NCBI GenBank assembly: GCA_031271045.1
Contig: JAISWO010000044.1
Coordinates: forward strand, 1-43,972
Direction of reading: 5' to 3'
DNA: 43,972 nt
Origin: Tannerellaceae bacterium
GTDB lineage: Bacteria > Bacteroidota > Bacteroidia > Bacteroidales > Tannerellaceae
The notes beneath the pieces were generated by a model. It was given only the letters and a program-made list of their open reading frames with translations. It did not search any database and was not told the DNA's origin. Shown one piece after another: positions 2,907 to 43,972 of the stretch. The position numbers and the translations under genes are program-made. Position 1 is the first letter of the stretch; each line of letters begins with the position of its first letter.

Positions 2907-5372
2907 TCAGAACAGGGGATTGGTCACCTTCTCTTCCAGCAAAGCCCGGCTGACCACTTCCCTGATGTCTTTTACATAATGGAATGTAAGGCCTTTGAGG
3001 TATTCGGCTTTGATTTCGTTGATGTCTTTCCGGTTCTCCTCGCAGAGGATGAGTTCTTTGATGCCGGCTCGTTTGGCGGCCAGTATTTTCTCTTTAATGC
3101 CGCCTACGGGCAGTACTTTTCCACGCAAGGTTATCTCGCCGGTCATGGCGATGCTGCTTCTGACTTTTCGTTGTGTGAAGGCGGAGACTAAGGAGGTGAC
3201 CATCGTAATACCGGCGCTTGGGCCATCTTTCGGGATAGCGCCTTCGGGCACGTGGATGTGCACGTTCCAGTTCTCAAACATTTCTTCGTCTATACCGAAG
3301 TGCGAGGCGTGCGCATGGATATATTCAAGCGCCAGCATGGCGGATTCTTTCATTACATCGCCCAGCTTGCCGGTGAGGGTCAGTTTGGATCCTTTTCCTT
3401 TGCTGAGGCTTGATTCGACAAAGAGTATTTCTCCCCCGACGGCTGTCCAGGCAAGGCCGGTGACGACTCCGGCGTATTCGTTGCCCTGGTAGGTATCGCG
3501 TGTGTATTCAACGGCGCCGAGGTATTCGGAGAGGTGTTCGGGCAGGATCTCTTCGGGTAGGGGTTCGTTGGAGGCTAATTTACGGGCCAGCTTACGCATG
3601 ACTTTGGCTATCTTTTTGTCTAATTCGCGGACGCCGCTTTCGCGGGTATAGGATATGACTAATTCCTGGAGGGTCTTCTTTTTGAACTTGGTGCTGGCTT
3701 TGGGCAGTCCGTGGGCTTCGAGTTGTTTGGGGACGAGGTGTTTGGAGGCTATCTGCATTTTCTCTTCCAGGATGTAGCCGCTTATTTCGATCAGTTCCAT
3801 GCGGTCGAGCAGGGGCTGGGAGATGGTGTTCAGGTTGTTGGCTGTGGCGATGAACATGACTTTGCTCAGGTCGTAGTCGATGTCGAGGTAGTTGTCGTGG
3901 AAGGCGTTGTTTTGTTCCGGGTCAAGGGCTTCGAGCAGGGCGGCTGCGGGGTCGCCTTTGAAGTCGTTGGCTACTTTGTCTATTTCGTCGAGGATAAAGA
4001 CAGGGTTTGAGGTGCCGGCTTTCATGATGTTCTGGATGATGCGTCCGCAGAGGGCGCCGATATAGGTTCGGCGGTGTCCTCGTATTTCGGCTTCGTCGTG
4101 GAGTCCGCCCAGGGAGATGCGGACGTATTTGCGGTTGAGGGCTTCGGCGACGGATTTGCCCAGAGAGGTTTTACCGACTCCGGGGGGGCCGTAGAGGCAG
4201 ATGATGGGTGATTTCATGTCGCCTTTGAGTTTGAGTACGGCGAGGTGTTCGATGATGCGTTCTTTTACTTTTTCGAGGCCGTAATGGTCGCGGTCGAGGA
4301 CTCGTTGGGCGTGGGCGAGGTTGAAGTTGTCTTTGCTGTATGTTCCCCAGGGGAGGTTGATGATGGTTTGTACGTATTGGGTTTGTATGGAGAAGTCGGG
4401 CGACTGTGGGTGGAGTCGTTCGAGTTTGCGTATTTCTTTTTCGAAGGTTTCTTTCACGGTGTCGGGCCATTGTTTGCGGCTGGCTTTGTTGCGTAGTTCG
4501 CGTATTTCGATTTCGTTGATGTTTCCTCCGAGTTCTTCTTGTATGGTTTTGATTTGTTGTTGCAGGAAGTATTCTTTTTGCTGCTGGTTGATGTCTTCAT
4601 GGGTTTTCATTTGGATGGAGTTTTTCAGCTCGAGCAGTTGGTATTCGCGGTTGAGGATGAACAGGAGCCGGAAGGCGCGTTCGCGGAGGTTACCGATGAG
4701 GAGGAGTTCTTGTTTTTCGGCCGGGCTGACCAGGATGTTGCTGCATGCGAAACTGATGACGTAGAGGACGTTTTTGTTGTTTTTGATTGTGAGCAGGAGG
4801 TCTCGCGGGAGTTCGTTGACGGCGGCCTGGAGCATTTTCACGGTTAGTTCTTTGATGGTTGAGACGAGGGCTTCGAATTCGCGGTCGTCTTTGCCGGGCA
4901 TTTCTTCTTCGAGGATGGTGATGTTTCCTTTGAGGTATGTTTCGGTGTGGATCAGTGTGTTGAGTTGGAAGCGTTTTTTGCCTTGGAGGATGACGGTGGT
5001 GGATCCGTCGGGCATTTCGAGTATGCGCACGACGTCGGCGATGACGCCGGTGGTGTAGAGGTCGTTTTCCTGGGGGTCTTCGATGTCGGTGTCTTTCTGG
5101 CAGAGGACGCCGACGAGTTTTTTGTGTTTGATGGCGTCGTTGATTAGTCGCATGGATTTGGGTCGTCCGACGGCGACGGGCATGGCGACTCCGGGGAAGA
5201 GTACGGTATTGCGTAGTGGGAGGATGGGGATGGTGTCGTCGAGGTTGTCGATGCCGTCTGTGAAGTCTTCGTCCGTATCGCATTGTGTGAGTAGGGGCAT
5301 TGCTAATCCTACGTTTTCGTCTGTGTCGTCGTTGAAGGTTATGTGACGGAGTATGCTTGTTTTATGTTTCAT
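2907..5372 (-). CDS. lon: ATP-dependent Lon protease (LonA)
   Basis: The 821-residue protein is a cytoplasmic AAA+ serine protease that degrades misfolded and regulatory proteins. The LON substrate-binding domain spans about 45-250 ([18 protein letters not shown]). The AAA+ module has Walker A GPPGVGKT at 395-402 and Walker [10 protein letters not shown] near 458-466. The C-terminal protease domain carries the Ser-Lys dyad Ser719 (PKDGPSAGI) and Lys762 (GGIKEK), with the 43-residue spacing of the E. coli enzyme. The protein is slightly longer than E. coli Lon because of an acidic N-terminal extension (TDENVG...[15 protein letters not shown]), which is usual in Bacteroidota. The gene stands alone. 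Its upstream region carries a 12-bp inverted repeat that overlaps the -7 box. Confidence 0.98.
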
Positions 5373-18923: not shown

Positions 18924-20108
18924 TCAGTCGTTCCGCATGGTGGCGGGATATTGCAGGTCGTCGAGGCAGGCGAGTATCAGGTCGTCCTTGACGATTTCCG
19001 CATCGCAGAGGCCGATGCCGGCGAAGGGTTTGTCGTAGCCTGCTTTGGAGGAGTAAATGCCTACGATGAAGCCGGTAACGGCGTCCTGGGCGCCGGTCAG
19101 GAGACTGAGGATGGGATAGTCGTACGGTTTGCCGTCTTCGCTGGGATCGTAGAGGCGGAGGATGCCATTTTCGGCGGCGGGGAATATTTCGGTGGCGAAA
19201 ATGTCGGCTTCGGCTAAGGCGATGGACATTTGGGCGGCCGTATTCGATATGGGTCCGGTGCCGAGTACGGCTTGGGCGGTGACGGTGAAGTGTGGGACGA
19301 CATCGCCTTCGTCTTCGTCTTCTTCGTCTTCGCCGGGCAGATCGGTGTCGTCATCTTTGCCGGGGTGATACTTCGGATTGCGGCGGGAGATGATGATTTC
19401 GTACTGGTGGATGAAGGAGTTGATGAAGGTGATAATTTCTTCGAGGAGGGCCTTGACTTCCTGGTCGACGGGGCGTTGCATTTCGTTGGCGCGGGCCATG
19501 ACGTTGATGCTGTCGGTCAGGATAAAAGCGGCTTCGTCGACCAAGAGGCGGATGTCTTTCATCGATCCTATTTTCTTGAGTTCTTCGAGGTTGAAGGTGC
19601 GTTCGACATAGGCGGCGATGAAGGCTTCGTTGTCGCGATCAAGGCGTTCGATGAGGCTGCTGACATTCGCGACGGTGGCGGCTGCGGCGTAGCGCGGTTT
19701 GGCCAGGTCCTGTATCATGTTGAAGAACAGAGAGGATACTTCGGTCATCGGCGCGTAATAGGCATCGGCGTATTTGTCCATTATTTCCATCAACGTCTGC
19801 CCGGCCTCGCGCAGGTTGGCATCTTCGCTGTACGTGGTGGCTTCGACGCTTCTTTTGAGTCCCATAAAGGCCATTCGCCGTTTTTCGTGCGCTTCGTTGA
19901 TTTGTTTGGTTTCCACGTGCTTGACGTCGCGCTTGTAGATGAGATCTTCTTTTTCAAACAACTGTACCAGGCGGTCCAGCAATGGTTGCAGGGCGGCCGG
20001 CTTCAGTATTTTTGTCAGCAGGAAAGCGATGATATTCTTGAAGAAATCAAAATGTTCTGCATTGCGCATCCTTCCTGTAAGCGAGCGATAACTTATTATC
20101 AGTTTCAT
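18924..20108 (-). CDS. DUF6261 family protein
   Basis: The 394-residue protein is a Bacteroidales-type DUF6261 protein of unknown function. Residues 1-245 are predicted mostly helical, with long amphipathic stretches (LKPAALQPLLDRLVQLFEKEDLIYKRDVKHVE, DQEVKALLEEIITFINSFIH). A strongly acidic linker follows at 251-269. The C-terminal part (about 272-394: FTVTAQAVLGTGPISNTAAQM, TGFIVGIYSSKAGYDKPFAGIGLC) resembles a beta-rich lectin- or Ig-like module. There is no signal peptide. The gene sits between the ECF sigma and FecR genes, in the same direction, with its own promoter and with a 42-bp repeat array upstream. That position looks like an insertion into the sigma/anti-sigma unit. Family identity is recalled from pattern, and no function is claimed. 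Confidence 0.75.
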   Translation of the reverse strand: MKLIISYRSLTGRMRNAEHFDFFKNIIAFLLTKILKPAALQPLLDRLVQLFEKEDLIYKRDVKHVETKQINEAHEKRRMAFMGLKRSVEATTYSEDANLREAGQTLMEIMDKYADAYYAPMTEVSSLFFNMIQDLAKPRYAAAATVANVSSLIERLDRDNEAFIAAYVERTFNLEELKKIGSMKDIRLLVDEAAFILTDSINVMARANEMQRPVDQEVKALLEEIITFINSFIHQYEIIISRRNPKYHPGKDDDTDLPGEDEEDEDEGDVVPHFTVTAQAVLGTGPISNTAAQMSIALAEADIFATEIFPAAENGILRLYDPSEDGKPYDYPILSLLTGAQDAVTGFIVGIYSSKAGYDKPFAGIGLCDAEIVKDDLILACLDDLQYPATMRND

Positions 20109-20177: not shown

Positions 20178-20264
20178 GAAAAAACCTGTTTTTTTTCATT
20201 CTGCAACAAAAAAAGCATCGAAAAAGCCGTTTCGTCGTCCGTCAAGTCCTCAAACTTAGCTGTC

Positions 20265-20545
20265 GTTGCTTCCGTAAAATTACGACGGCCCGGTTGATGC
20301 GTTGGCGGAGCTTTCGTAAACTTGCGAAACCCTGCCGGACGTTTTGCCGGAGCTTTCGCAAACTTACAAAACCTTGCCGGACGTTTGCTTGGAGTTTTCG
20401 TAAAATTACGAAACGTCCGATGGCAAATTGGGGAGATCTTTGTAAAATTACGAAATGCCCGCCAACATATTTATGGGATTTTCGTAGATTTACGGAGCCT
20501 CCGCCGGCACGTTGGCGAAGTTTTCGTAAAATTACACTCCGGCCG
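20265..20545. repeat. Degenerate 42-bp tandem repeat array (array 1)
   Basis: About seven units lie between the sigma gene and the DUF6261 gene. The landmark TTTCG (or one-base variants) recurs at 20270, 20312, 20354, 20396, 20438, 20480 and 20522, exactly 42 bp apart. The core is a palindrome, best preserved as TTTCGTAAAATTACGAAA at 20396-20413. The rest of each unit is GC-rich, with GCCGG and GGCG elements. A weak earlier copy may begin near 20230. Because 42 is a multiple of three the array stays open in several frames, but no frame has a convincing gene start. With 20109-20264, which holds the DUF6261 promoter and A/T-rich sequence, it makes up the 442-bp gene-free stretch. Confidence 0.8.
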
Positions 20546-40300: not shown

Positions 40301-41656
40301 ATGAAGCACTTTTTGAAACGTATTACCCTCGCCGCCTTGACGGTTTGCCTGGCGGTGGGATGTGGGGAAGATCCGGCGCCAAAGATACCGGCGCTTGTGA
40401 TCCCCGAACCCGAACCTTCCTCGCCGGCGGTGGAACGACTTCGCAACTTCCCGCCCTTGAAAGGCACCTACTGGAAGCTGGCCGGCGTCGTCGATACCTT
40501 GACCGGCGCCCTCAGGGTGCTGGAACCCAAAGACTGTGTGAGCTGCTACACGCTGATGTTCGATAGCAACAGTACGGCCACAGGGAAGTCCGTAGATAAT
40601 ATCCTCCATGTCTCCCTTGAGGTAGCGGAGGGAAGCCCGATCATGAACATCGGCCCGGCATACGATATGGAGCCGGATGCCCTGTTTTTCTATCTGTTCG
40701 TCATGCAGGGAGTACATTTGTGCGAATACGATCAGGAGAAAACAGAACTCCACTTCTTCCACCAGAACAAAGATTCTTATTTGCTGTATAAACCGGAGCC
40801 GGTGCCCGAACCGGAACCCGAGCCGGAACCCGAACCAGAGCCCGAACCGGAGCCCGAACCTGCCTGGTTCCCTTCCCTGGAAGGAACCCATTGGAAGTTG
40901 GGCGGCATCGTCGATGTCCTGACCGGGGCCGTCAGGGTACTGGAGCCCAGAGACTGCACAACTTGCTACACCCTGGCCTTTGATACCGACAGTACAGCGG
41001 CAATGAAATCCAAGGCTAACACCATTGGCATCCATATAGGCGGCAATGGCCAGATGGAGATCTACCTCACTGCTGCAGGTGAATCAGGGCCGGATGCGTA
41101 TGTCCTCTACAATTTTGCCAAGGAAGTACATTCCTTCGAATACCAGGCCGCCTGGTCGTCCGAATATGCCGGGGGAAAGGAAGAACTCCGCTTCTTCAAC
41201 GGAAACAAAGACCAATATCTGCTCTACACGCCCGACCCCTCGATCGAGACACCCTCCCCATTCCCTCCCCTGGCAGGAACACATTGGAAGGCTGCCGGCA
41301 TTGTCGAGGCCGCAACCGGCAACGTCAGGAGGCTGGAGCCCAAGAACTGCGAGAGCTGCTACACCTTTGCCTTCGATACCGACAGAACAGCCCAAGGCCA
41401 GTCTGTCATGAACGCCCTCTGGCTATCCTTACGGGAAAGCGAAGCCGGCCATTATTACGCGCATACAGGATACACTTTTATATACGAAGAAATACCCAAG
41501 GGACAAGAGGAGTTAGACCTTTTCTACGATATAATCGGAACCTGCCCCTACGAATACCGCGCCACCTGGTCGTCCGAAGCGGCCGAAGGAAGGAAGGAGC
41601 TCCGCTTCTTCAACCAAAAGAAAGATCTTTATTTACAGTATAAACCCATACAATGA
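40301..41656 (+). CDS. Lipoprotein with three lipocalin-like repeats and an EP linker
   Basis: The 451-residue protein has a lipoprotein signal with lipobox LAVGC (Cys21). Three homologous domains follow, at about 50-163, 189-310 and 321-449. Each opens with FP.L.GT.WKL.G(I/V)VD..TG..R.LEP and a CxxC pair (Cys79/82, 219/222, 350/353), followed by YT..FD.D.TA. The last strand is ELRFFN.NKD.YL.Y. Domains 1 and 2 are joined by a Glu-Pro repeat (about 165-187). The pattern resembles lipocalin-like or META-like secreted modules of Bacteroidales, often single-copy; a threefold array in one chain is unusual. It is monocistronic. No function is known. Confidence 0.85.
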   Translation: MKHFLKRITLAALTVCLAVGCGEDPAPKIPALVIPEPEPSSPAVERLRNFPPLKGTYWKLAGVVDTLTGALRVLEPKDCVSCYTLMFDSNSTATGKSVDNILHVSLEVAEGSPIMNIGPAYDMEPDALFFYLFVMQGVHLCEYDQEKTELHFFHQNKDSYLLYKPEPVPEPEPEPEPEPEPEPEPEPAWFPSLEGTHWKLGGIVDVLTGAVRVLEPRDCTTCYTLAFDTDSTAAMKSKANTIGIHIGGNGQMEIYLTAAGESGPDAYVLYNFAKEVHSFEYQAAWSSEYAGGKEELRFFNGNKDQYLLYTPDPSIETPSPFPPLAGTHWKAAGIVEAATGNVRRLEPKNCESCYTFAFDTDRTAQGQSVMNALWLSLRESEAGHYYAHTGYTFIYEEIPKGQEELDLFYDIIGTCPYEYRATWSSEAAEGRKELRFFNQKKDLYLQYKPIQ

Positions 41657-41685: not shown

Positions 41686-42738
41686 TCAGGGCTGATAGAA
41701 TCTTTCCAATCGCGCTATTTCCGGAGCGAAAAGTTGCCGGGTTTTGCGGTTTGTTTCTTCAAAAAAGGAGAGTTCGATCCGGGGGGAGCCTTTCAGGACG
41801 GTTTTCTTCCACGATCCGACGATCCGGCCGTTCAGCACGATGGTGGGGGAGAACAAACCGTTTTTGGTCATCACCTTGCCGTAATGAACGTCGTCGATCA
41901 TTTCGCTGCGGTCTTTGTAGCTGACCACATATTCGTCGAACGGGGGGAGCAGGAGGGCCGAATCACCTGCCGGGATCCGAAGGTCGTTTCTCATCCAGAA
42001 AACCCGCCCGTTCACTGTTTCGCAAACCCAATCGCTTTGGATCGTTTCAAGCGCCCGCTTACATTCGGTGAGCGATAAGCCCGACCACCAGGCAAAATCA
42101 TGGATCGTAGCCGGGGCATGACTGGTGAAATACCGCCGGGCCAGGCGCTCCAGCGCTTCTTCCCTGGAAAGCGTCTGTTTCCGGGGAGCAAACTCTTCGA
42201 GCAGGGCGAAGGTTTGCTGTTTTCCTTTCAAACGCCCGTTTACAACAAGCCCTTCCCTTTCGGCATAATGTATAACCTGGTTCAGGACATGGATGTCAAA
42301 GGCTTTCCCTTGAGAAGCCAAACGGTCGCTTATCTCCTGTTTGGTGAGGTGCCGGTTGCCTTGAAGGATCTTTTCCAGGACGGGAATGGCGGCGTAAATA
42401 AGTTTTTCGTCCACTTGCATCATCCTTACATAGGATTGGTAAACCGGCTTCAAATGCGGATTGGACAAGTCGAACATCCAGTGAATATCCTCTGCCGGCA
42501 CAAAGTGCCACGTCGGGCGCAGGATGTGAGTACGGATTATTTGCCCGCTATTGAGCGCCTCGTCCACCTCTTTTACCGTTTTATTGCCGAGCCGTGCGCC
42601 GATGGCCCATTTAGCCGGCTCCAGCGATTGCGACTGCATCGCTCCCATCCACGAAACAACCTCGACGGGTTCCTTCATGCCATGCTTCGCCAGCAATTGA
42701 TTATATAGGCGGATGTTGAGTAATTCGGATGTATTCAT
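41686..42738 (-). CDS. Winged-helix DNA-binding protein, AlkZ/HTH_42-like
   Basis: The 350-residue protein resembles the HTH_42 (DUF1006) family, which includes the DNA glycosylases AlkZ and YcaQ that unhook interstrand crosslinks. It opens LLNIRLYNQLLAKHGMKEPVEVVSWMGAMQSQSLEPAKWAIG and continues LNSGQIIRTHILRPTWHFVPAEDI, which holds the QSQ- and RTHxLRPTWHxV-type conserved residues. The C-terminal part has LLPPFDEYVVSYKDR, typical of the family. The start at 42738 aligns with the conserved MQSQ region and lies 24 nt after a TATTTTTG box (42763-42770). Glycosylase activity is inferred from the family only. Confidence 0.85.
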   Translation of the reverse strand: MNTSELLNIRLYNQLLAKHGMKEPVEVVSWMGAMQSQSLEPAKWAIGARLGNKTVKEVDEALNSGQIIRTHILRPTWHFVPAEDIHWMFDLSNPHLKPVYQSYVRMMQVDEKLIYAAIPVLEKILQGNRHLTKQEISDRLASQGKAFDIHVLNQVIHYAEREGLVVNGRLKGKQQTFALLEEFAPRKQTLSREEALERLARRYFTSHAPATIHDFAWWSGLSLTECKRALETIQSDWVCETVNGRVFWMRNDLRIPAGDSALLLPPFDEYVVSYKDRSEMIDDVHYGKVMTKNGLFSPTIVLNGRIVGSWKKTVLKGSPRIELSFFEETNRKTRQLFAPEIARLERFYQP

Positions 42739-42762
42739 GCCATTAAGCAATAGATTGATCTG

Positions 42763-42770
42763 CAAAAATA
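42763..42770 (-). promoter_or_regulatory. -7 box of the winged-helix gene
   Basis: TATTTTTG on the minus strand is an exact TAnnTTTG match, 24 nt before the chosen start. No TTG lies at -33. Confidence 0.4.
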
Positions 42771-42900
42771 GTAATACGGAAAGTTTCCCGTACGATCATT
42801 CCATGAAATATATATCAGTCCGGCGCGACCCAAAAGGAAGCCGCCCGGTGTTTGTTCACCCCCACAGGATTTTTGCACGTCCCATTCCGGACCGGATTGC

Positions 42901-43721
42901 CCTTTCCAAGGATTTTGGAAGAGCAGTTTCAAAATGAAATGGCTCCTCCAAGAGAACTGGAGAAGCAGTTTCAAAATGAATTTGCCTTTCCAAAAAATTT
43001 GGAGAAGCAGTTTCAAAATGGATTTGCCTTTCCAAAAAATTTGGAGAAGCATTTTCAAAGTGAATTTGCCTTTCCAAAAAATTTGGAGAAGTAGTTTCAA
43101 AATGGATTTGCTTTTCCAAAAAATTTGGAGAAGTAGTTTCAAAGTGGATTTGCCTTTCCAACAAATTTGGAGTAGCAGTTTCAAAGTGAAATGGCTCCTC
43201 CAAGAGAACTGGAGAAGCAGTTTCAAAGTGAAATGGCCTTTCCAGAAAATATGTAGAAGCAGTTTCAAAGTGAATTTGCCTTTCCAGAAAATATGGAGAA
43301 GCAGTTTCAAAGTGGATTTGCCTTTCCAAAAAATTTGGAGAAGCAGTTTCAAAGTGAAATGGCCTTTCCAAAAAATTTGGAGAAGCAGTTTCAAAGTGAA
43401 ATGGCTCCTCCAAGAGAACCGGAGAAGCAGTTTCAAAATGAAATGGCTTCTCCAAGAGAACCGGAGAAGCAGTTTCAAAGTGAATTTGCCTTTCCAAAAA
43501 ATTTGGAGAAGCAGTTTCAAAGTGGATTTGCCTTTCCAAAAAATTTGGAGAAGCAGTTTCAAAATGGATTTGCCTTTCCAAGAGAACTGGAGAAGCAGTT
43601 TCAAAATGGATTTGCCTTTCCAAAAAATTTGGAGAAGCAGTTTCAAAATGAAATGGCTTCTCCAAGAGAACCGGAAGAGGCAATCCAAAGTGAAATGGCT
43701 CCTCCAAAAGAATTCCGCGAT
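42901..43721. repeat. 42-bp tandem repeat array (array 2), about 19 units
   Basis: The unit CAGTTTCAAA... restarts at 42924 and then every 42 bp to 43638, with a last decayed unit to 43721; a half unit precedes it. There is no insertion or deletion in over 700 bp. Each unit holds two dyads: TTTCAaaaTGAAA, and either CCAAAaaaTTTGG or CTTCTCC...GGAGAAG. Units combine two forms of the right half (CTCCTCCAAGAGAACTGGAG or CCTTTCCAAAAAATTTGGAG) with A/G changes in the left half. Because the period is a multiple of three, three or more frames on both strands are open, but the QFQNE frame carries TAG in units 5 and 6 and no frame has a convincing start. It is treated as a non-coding repeat. With 42739-42900 and 43722-43933 it makes up a gene-free stretch of about 1.2 kb. 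Confidence 0.9.
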
Positions 43722-43821
43722 CAGGAGCAGGCAGATTATTTTTAGAAAAAAACGGACGAAAATAGTTGAAAGTTTGATTTCTTTGCTATAAATTTATGCC
43801 GGTTTTTGATGGGGTTTTGAA

Positions 43822-43869
43822 GGGACTTCGGCTCTGTAAAAAATCAAGATAGCAAAAATTAGAAGTCCC
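43822..43869. repeat. Inverted repeat upstream of the right-edge gene
   Basis: GGGACTTC (43822-43829) and GAAGTCCC (43862-43869) are exact reverse complements with a 32-nt loop. It may be a leader hairpin of the gene starting at 43934 or a boundary of array 2. Confidence 0.4.
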
Positions 43870-43933
43870 CTGTATTGCGTTCGCTTTGCTCATAAACAAT
43901 TAAAGAAACACTACATCGCTAACACATCGTATC

Positions 43934-43972
43934 ATGAAAAAGTTCTTTACAAATACTGTTACATTGGTCGTC
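43934..43972 (+). CDS. Start of an exported protein gene, truncated by the window
   Basis: Only 13 codons are present: MKKFFTNTVTLVV, a basic start followed by hydrophobic residues, as in a signal peptide. The 200 bp before it hold no other gene. The downstream gene is not visible and the product cannot be named. Confidence 0.5.
   Translation, partial: MKKFFTNTVTLVV

Follow-up and report, generated by a model that had tools for sequence, protein, structure and literature searches.

A 42-bp tandem array in a Tannerellaceae genome is best read as a DUF6261 cassette that has lost its gene

What is a tandem repeat for that keeps its period to the base while its sequence varies? The question is raised by the window analyzed here, a 43,972-bp stretch from a Tannerellaceae bacterium that is contig C66 of a 2.79-Mb assembly (74 contigs, 88.5% complete). 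The array near its right end has 19 units and no indels, with 17 of the units distinct and a mean identity to the consensus of 0.88 (Table 1), much as the original prediction for this DNA had it (about 19 units with an exact 42-bp period). It lies, also as predicted, between divergent genes, an AlkZ-like gene on the minus strand and an ORF on the plus strand; an exported neighbor had been proposed as well, and the plus-strand ORF, truncated by the contig end, looks signal-peptide-like by eye. Variation among the units is modular, but the halves do not recombine freely as had been suggested: the units starting with CTCC or CTTC (6 of 20) are each preceded by a unit ending in GAAATGG. We also note a lipoprotein-like ORF directly to the left of the AlkZ-like gene (window positions 40301 to 41656), in which three tandem domains and a PEPEPE linker can be seen by eye.

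Table 1. Positions of the features discussed, in coordinates of the window
Feature	Position	Strand	Remarks
Intact DUF6261 gene, other subfamily	18924..20108	-	PF19775, E 2e-24
42-bp array upstream of the intact DUF6261 gene	20258..20535	-	Unit unrelated to that of the array at 42901; TTTCGTAAAATTACGAAA dyad
AlkZ-like DNA glycosylase, left neighbor	41686..42738	-	PF06224
Possible relic, 5' flank of the C3 DUF6261 gene	42791..42815	+	L020 1653-1677, 21/25, E 0.003
Relic, DUF6261 coding sequence	42819..42861	+	38/43 identical (88%) to L020 2019-2061, E 2e-11
13-bp match, left edge of the C3 array	42863..42875	+	L020 2646-2658, E 0.03; collinear with the two matches above but weak by itself
42-bp array	42901..43698	+	19 x 42 bp, dyad axes every 21 bp
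20th unit, decayed	43699..43717	+	CTCCTCCAAAAG edge common with the C3 array (judged by eye)
Right-neighbor ORF start, truncated by contig end	43934..43972	+	MKKFFTNTVTLVV start signal-peptide-like, by eye

A fast-evolving repeat protein had been among the options offered, and the period of 14 codons would give it a 14-residue unit. Open frames on both strands are indeed present (one plus frame and two minus frames, all other than the KQFQ frame, stay open throughout the array), and they are expected once one 42-bp (14-codon) unit is open. The KQFQ frame itself, the likeliest coding frame, is interrupted by TAG in four units (5, 6, 7, and 9) rather than the two originally counted, and variation is spread evenly over the codon positions (33/26/35). 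In the homologous array on contig C16, one 41-bp unit throws the frame out of register, and sister families have periods of 41 and 43 bp, with which a reading frame cannot be kept. We therefore reject the repeat protein, which is hardly credible on the TAG codons and the lack of codon-position bias.

The two dyads per unit that had been predicted are borne out at the level of the whole unit. Counting from 0, their centers fall on positions 11 and 32 of the unit, a distance of exactly 21 bp, and whole-unit symmetry is 0.63, compared with 0.44 ± 0.04 after column shuffling, a value matched in none of 1,000 shuffles. We note, however, that a single axis by itself is not significant, being equaled in 45 of 200 shuffles.

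Further copies of the unit had been looked for in related genomes, and no DNA match was found at E 1e-6 in the other 99 relatives searched, 17 of them in the same genus; copies do occur in the source genome, at three other places (contigs C3 and C16 and the contig end of C23). The copy on C3 (locus L020) begins at the stop codon of a DUF6261 gene (L020 1746-2636; PF19775, E 8e-30), and three short stretches to the left of the window array match this locus collinearly (Table 1). This collinearity is why we read the window array as a cassette minus its gene: it is best read as a DUF6261 cassette from which the gene was lost, with the coding-sequence relic carrying the claim and the other two matches weak alone. 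The array has the period (42 bp) and the half-period axes of the DUF6261-linked arrays described below and lacks an adjacent DUF6261 gene, so that it is classed by descent as a gene-lost member of these arrays rather than an intact one.

DUF6261 genes and arrays of this type are strongly associated in the source genome. There are 40 DUF6261 matches, including one within the window (Table 1), and 36 of them have an adjacent array with a period of 41 to 43 bp, the unit sequences being mostly unrelated. These loci were scored by the best 39- to 45-bp periodic stretch in the better of two 750-nt flanks, with a threshold of at least 50, whereas controls are single 800-nt stretches; 15 of 392 such stretches from the same genome (327 kb) reach this score, some of them being gene-less arrays, as do 4 of 410 from other genomes. 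With TRF (period 40 to 44 bp or a multiple), there are 12 arrays in the 327 kb of the source genome, which contain none of the 40 DUF6261 matches. By comparison, four genomes in which DUF6261 was not detected have 1 such array in ∼184 kb, and three genomes with 5 to 9 DUF6261 matches have 2 in ∼160 kb. Arrays with a period of 21 bp, half of 42, are also seen (12 by TRF in the 327 kb; 20 contig starts, L090 to L109). No clear array adjoins the remaining four genes (L027, L043, L047, and L083); TRF does report a 42/84-bp array for L027, despite its sub-threshold score, and L083 has an array ∼0.9 to 1.3 kb upstream.

The 36 gene-linked arrays share little sequence, and blastn relates only L082 to L089 (90%) and, more weakly, L033 to L088, L033 to L038, and L051 to L086. 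Codivergence of units and proteins was considered and set aside: mean unit similarity stays at background (0.36 to 0.39) wherever the paired proteins are less than 70% identical and is high only for the three pairs above that level, and some distant protein pairs also reach 0.55 to 0.58. Among the long DUF6261 proteins (L027, L036, L042, L045, and L086; L025 and L043), the C-terminal domain is highly similar despite differing N-terminal domains; by eye, it looks as if it had been exchanged like a cassette.

Gene-less arrays are not confined to the window. Fifteen were compared by blastn, including two (C2 and C16b) with periods of 63 to 65 bp, and eight match exactly one gene-linked array each, three of the eight matching the C3 array; of the remainder, two match one another and five match none. 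No relics were found near the other 14 (tblastn at E 0.01 and blastn at E 1e-4, within 2.5 kb or as far as the contig extends), and the tblastn search misses the window relic too. The nearest orthologue of the AlkZ locus (L153, 64%) has neither array nor DUF6261 in the ∼288 nt of its 5' side that are covered, and with a flank of this length the comparison fits insertion or deletion alike. Several of the ends of contigs C4, C8, C22, and C23 fall inside 42-bp arrays, and arrays thus probably break the assembly and are undercounted.

The pairing extends beyond the source genome. DUF6261 is present in all 18 genomes of the genus, with 2 to 44 matches per genome, in 15 of 149 genomes drawn evenly from the Bacteroidales, and in 3 of 198 drawn from the Bacteroidota (the source genome is counted in each). 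At a score of at least 40, arrays adjoin 16 of the 28 loci from the same genus, where several flanks are short, 19 of the 27 from across the order, and 10 of the 13 named loci that could be scored (14 were fetched); these loci are the best matches and do not represent a random draw. The 14 named relatives, all metagenome-assembled genomes labeled Tannerellaceae bacterium, appear from their isolate names to be of termite-gut origin. When no period is preset (20 to 130 bp), the strongest periodicity of the 5' flank falls at 41 to 43 bp or a multiple for 28 of the 32 loci sampled across the order and phylum. The 32 loci come from 16 genomes, with positives in 14, and the count takes in weak peaks at the right period such as L134, L189, and L192; in control stretches this occurs in 6 of 31, near the chance level of the accepted periods. 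Four loci (L136, L137, L146, and L190) show no such peak, and the two most distant genomes have a 42-bp array (L188, G218, score 44) and a 41-bp array (L191, G276, score 133). Upstream of position 4001 at L118, we note a strongly degenerate array with a sub-threshold score, in which GCAAAT..ATTTGC dyads are recognizable by eye at ∼42-bp spacing.

In a tree of 80 DUF6261 proteins, all 10 genes with a 3' array, including the C3 gene, form one clade with support of 100/100, and the position of the array and its linkage are thus inherited with the gene. We find no support for spread of the cassettes by phages or plasmids: a 13-protein DUF6261 alignment matched nine stretches of viral contigs, none of them a confirmed relative, a 26-nt piece of the array unit had no exact match in the viral contigs, and the DUF6261 protein of the window had no tblastn match in 72,556 plasmid records. 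This protein also weakly matches one unannotated 'Bacteriophage sp.' record, for which TRF reports no array of this type. Divergent genes also flank a five-unit 42-bp array in genome G062 (L159 1181-1389, the same as L173 9897-10105), which lies upstream of an AlkZ-like gene. DUF6261 was not detected in this genome, and the array is the sole one of its kind in the ∼184 kb sampled from DUF6261-free genomes.

What the arrays share is geometry. Among 81 arrays searched over 39 to 45 bp, which are partly dependent (L082/L089, L110/L111, and L068/L075 are close pairs), the period is 42 bp in 41, 41 bp in 30, 43 bp in 9, and 40 bp in 1. Dyad symmetry is significant (P ≤ 0.05) in 28 of the 36 arrays of the source genome and not significant in 8. 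Local symmetry exactly half a period from the best axis is 0.417 over the 81 arrays, compared with ∼0.25 elsewhere and ∼0.29 half a base off, and the half-period axis ranks first in 32 of the 81, where ∼2 are expected. In 77 arrays, the columns 2 to 7 bp from the best axis are conserved above the array mean and the center below it, although the same pattern is faint at the second axis. Conserved half-sites with a variable center are as expected for a twofold-symmetric protein. Compensatory changes are in modest excess (99, compared with 75.8 ± 6.4 and a maximum of 101 in shuffled data), a figure inflated by related units.

Symmetric tandem DNA can also arise without function, through fold-back or template-switch duplication and unequal crossing-over; alternating inverted halves would generate the half-period axis, and units turn over rapidly between related genes, as such a process would predict. 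It leaves unexplained, however, the restriction to 41 to 43 bp across genera and families, the tie to one gene family, the inherited position beside the gene, and the conserved half-sites around a variable center, and we consider purely mutational products unlikely.

A candidate promoter element adds to the picture on the gene-proximal side. TAnnTTTG, the -7 consensus given for sigma-ABfr (PMC7366714), lies between array and ATG for 26 of 31 upstream arrays in the source genome, 24 of them with the element 20 to 62 nt before the ATG, and its density is 6.65 per kb between array and ATG compared with ∼0.5 per kb upstream of or within the arrays. In the independent set, it occurs 15 to 75 nt before the ATG for only 15 of 40 arrays. 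In the source genome, the dyad axes seem to be phased to this element at 21 bp (n=23, p ∼0.0008, with the period chosen post hoc), a suggestive result that finds no support in the independent set, where phasing is not significant (n=15, p=0.35).

A structured RNA had been another of the options offered. Its most concrete form would be a repeat antitoxin like those of type III toxin-antitoxin systems (ToxIN, CptIN), with DUF6261 as the toxin; in both, a tandem array adjoins a small protein gene, many of the present arrays are immediately 5' of that gene, and type III antitoxin repeat units are close in length to those seen here. Over 5,301 axis pairs in the 81 arrays (axes with symmetry of at least 0.5), however, mismatches are G.T in 396 and A.C in 434, and there is no G.T excess on either strand; since selection on the RNA of either strand should favor one kind, this fits duplex DNA rather than RNA. 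Rfam gives 14 matches for positions 42700 to 43972, all far under the gathering score (the best at 36.7 bits against 144). Type III arrays are described as lying downstream of the promoter, with a terminator between array and toxin gene (PMC8860590), whereas the putative promoter element here is usually between array and gene (26 of 31) and shows no enrichment ahead of the array. Type III toxins are endoribonucleases; in the proteins scanned here, DUF6261 is the sole domain detected. The 10 arrays that are 3' of their gene also fit poorly with an antitoxin RNA. Mismatch counts, Rfam, and promoter order thus leave a structured RNA unsupported and very unlikely, and the window array is probably neither a repeat protein nor an RNA. 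The proposal that selection may act on DNA or RNA structure rather than protein is thus partly supported, with DNA the better fit of the two.

A constant metric with free sequence, half-period axes, conserved half-sites, and the lack of strand bias together suggest duplex DNA that carries binding sites in helical phase, and protein-binding sites, which the original prediction had listed together with recombination sites, fit best among the three options it offered. We thus read the window array, with a probability of about 0.5, as an array of symmetric DNA-binding sites that was formerly part of a DUF6261 cassette, the gene having been deleted and the array kept, and with the binder most simply a DUF6261 protein. 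A unit of 41 to 43 bp is about four helical turns and tends to hold two dyads exactly half a period, or about two turns, apart; with half-sites of ∼5 to 6 bp lying 2 to 7 bp from a variable center, a twofold-symmetric protein could bind one face of the duplex and assemble along the array.

DUF6261 is a candidate reader because it is the only constant partner of the arrays, and since almost every cassette has unit sequences of its own within one common geometry, the reader is presumably cassette specific, most simply the adjacent DUF6261 protein. Such a model demands fast change in specificity, as units are no more alike than background once protein identity drops below 70%. Autoregulation of the DUF6261 gene from its array would be the likeliest primary role, given that most arrays in the source genome are upstream and adjoin the likely promoter of the gene. 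On this view, the C3 protein would act in trans on the gene-less arrays of the same sequence (window, C16, and C23), unless these are relics. Pairing, periodicity, two-axis symmetry, and relics are observed features, to which protein binding, DUF6261 as the binder, autoregulation, and action in trans are added as proposals.

The binder could instead be a factor other than DUF6261, such as a nucleoid protein that reads DNA shape, a regulator encoded elsewhere, or a recombinase that uses the arrays for cassette spread, with DUF6261 as passenger or partner. A single geometry shared by diverse unit sequences would suit such a factor, as would cassettes spread over many contigs together with gene-less copies, and the array in a genome without a detected DUF6261 gene. 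The proteins themselves also lend it some weight, with N-terminal domains that are mostly acidic (pI <7 in 27 of 39) and no other Pfam domain or recognized DNA-binding domain in the two that were scanned; the DUF6261 family profile finds nothing among PDB sequences at E ≤ 1. (A PADLOC match of the C3 protein to JetC2 is weak, at E 0.008, and was disregarded.) Dozens of unrelated units are beyond a single reader of fixed specificity, however, and the inheritance of array position with the gene argues for a direct tie to DUF6261. Binding solely by another factor therefore seems doubtful to us, and we retain DUF6261 as the putative reader.

Several known systems resemble these cassettes in part. 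REP, BIME, and REPIN elements with their RAYT genes likewise combine a gene with cognate palindromic repeats and gene-less copies elsewhere in the genome, but RAYTs are tyrosine (HUH) transposases, and the two DUF6261 proteins scanned have PF19775 only and no such domain. The DUF6261 repeats are, moreover, long tandem arrays with a fixed period of 41 to 43 bp, and dozens of mostly unrelated gene-array pairs occur in a single genome. Iteron and partition arrays (parC/ParR, tubC/TubR, and plasmid iterons) likewise consist of helically phased tandem sites next to the gene for the protein that binds them, a role that is putative for DUF6261. These are plasmid systems with Rep or partition genes, however, in contrast to the many cassettes of one family seen here, with nearly private units, two dyads per period, and no match for the DUF6261 protein of the window in the 72,556 plasmid records.

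DUF6261 (PF19775) is annotated as a family of unknown function, and all of the gene-linked arrays in this analysis are paired with one of its members. We found no description of the pairing in the literature searched, as judged from titles and the starts of abstracts and with preprints and most subscription journals outside its scope; there was likewise no mention of PF19775, and DUF6261 was named once, in a paper whose subject is unrelated by its title. The DUF6261-linked arrays are thus apparently an undescribed, large family of DNA arrays in the Bacteroidota. Membership in this family explains a repeat that seems meaningless at a single locus, and the loss of its gene lies beyond what could be read from a single sequence.

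A protein family with up to 44 matches per genome in the genus thereby gains a partner in a sharply delimited DNA architecture found in several families of the Bacteroidota, and a domain of unknown function becomes one half of a testable protein-array pair. More tentatively, it is possible that DUF6261 proteins and their arrays are dozens of mutually orthogonal protein-DNA address pairs in one cell, constant in geometry and freely diverging in sequence, in which a protein would recognize no array but its own, together with any gene-less copies of it, as a private repressor or a nucleoid-looping or segregation system, the pairs multiplying and diversifying as cassettes. If each protein does read only its own array, then one genome would hold around three dozen natural orthogonal DNA-recognition pairs, which would be useful both for studying the evolution of specificity and as genetic parts.
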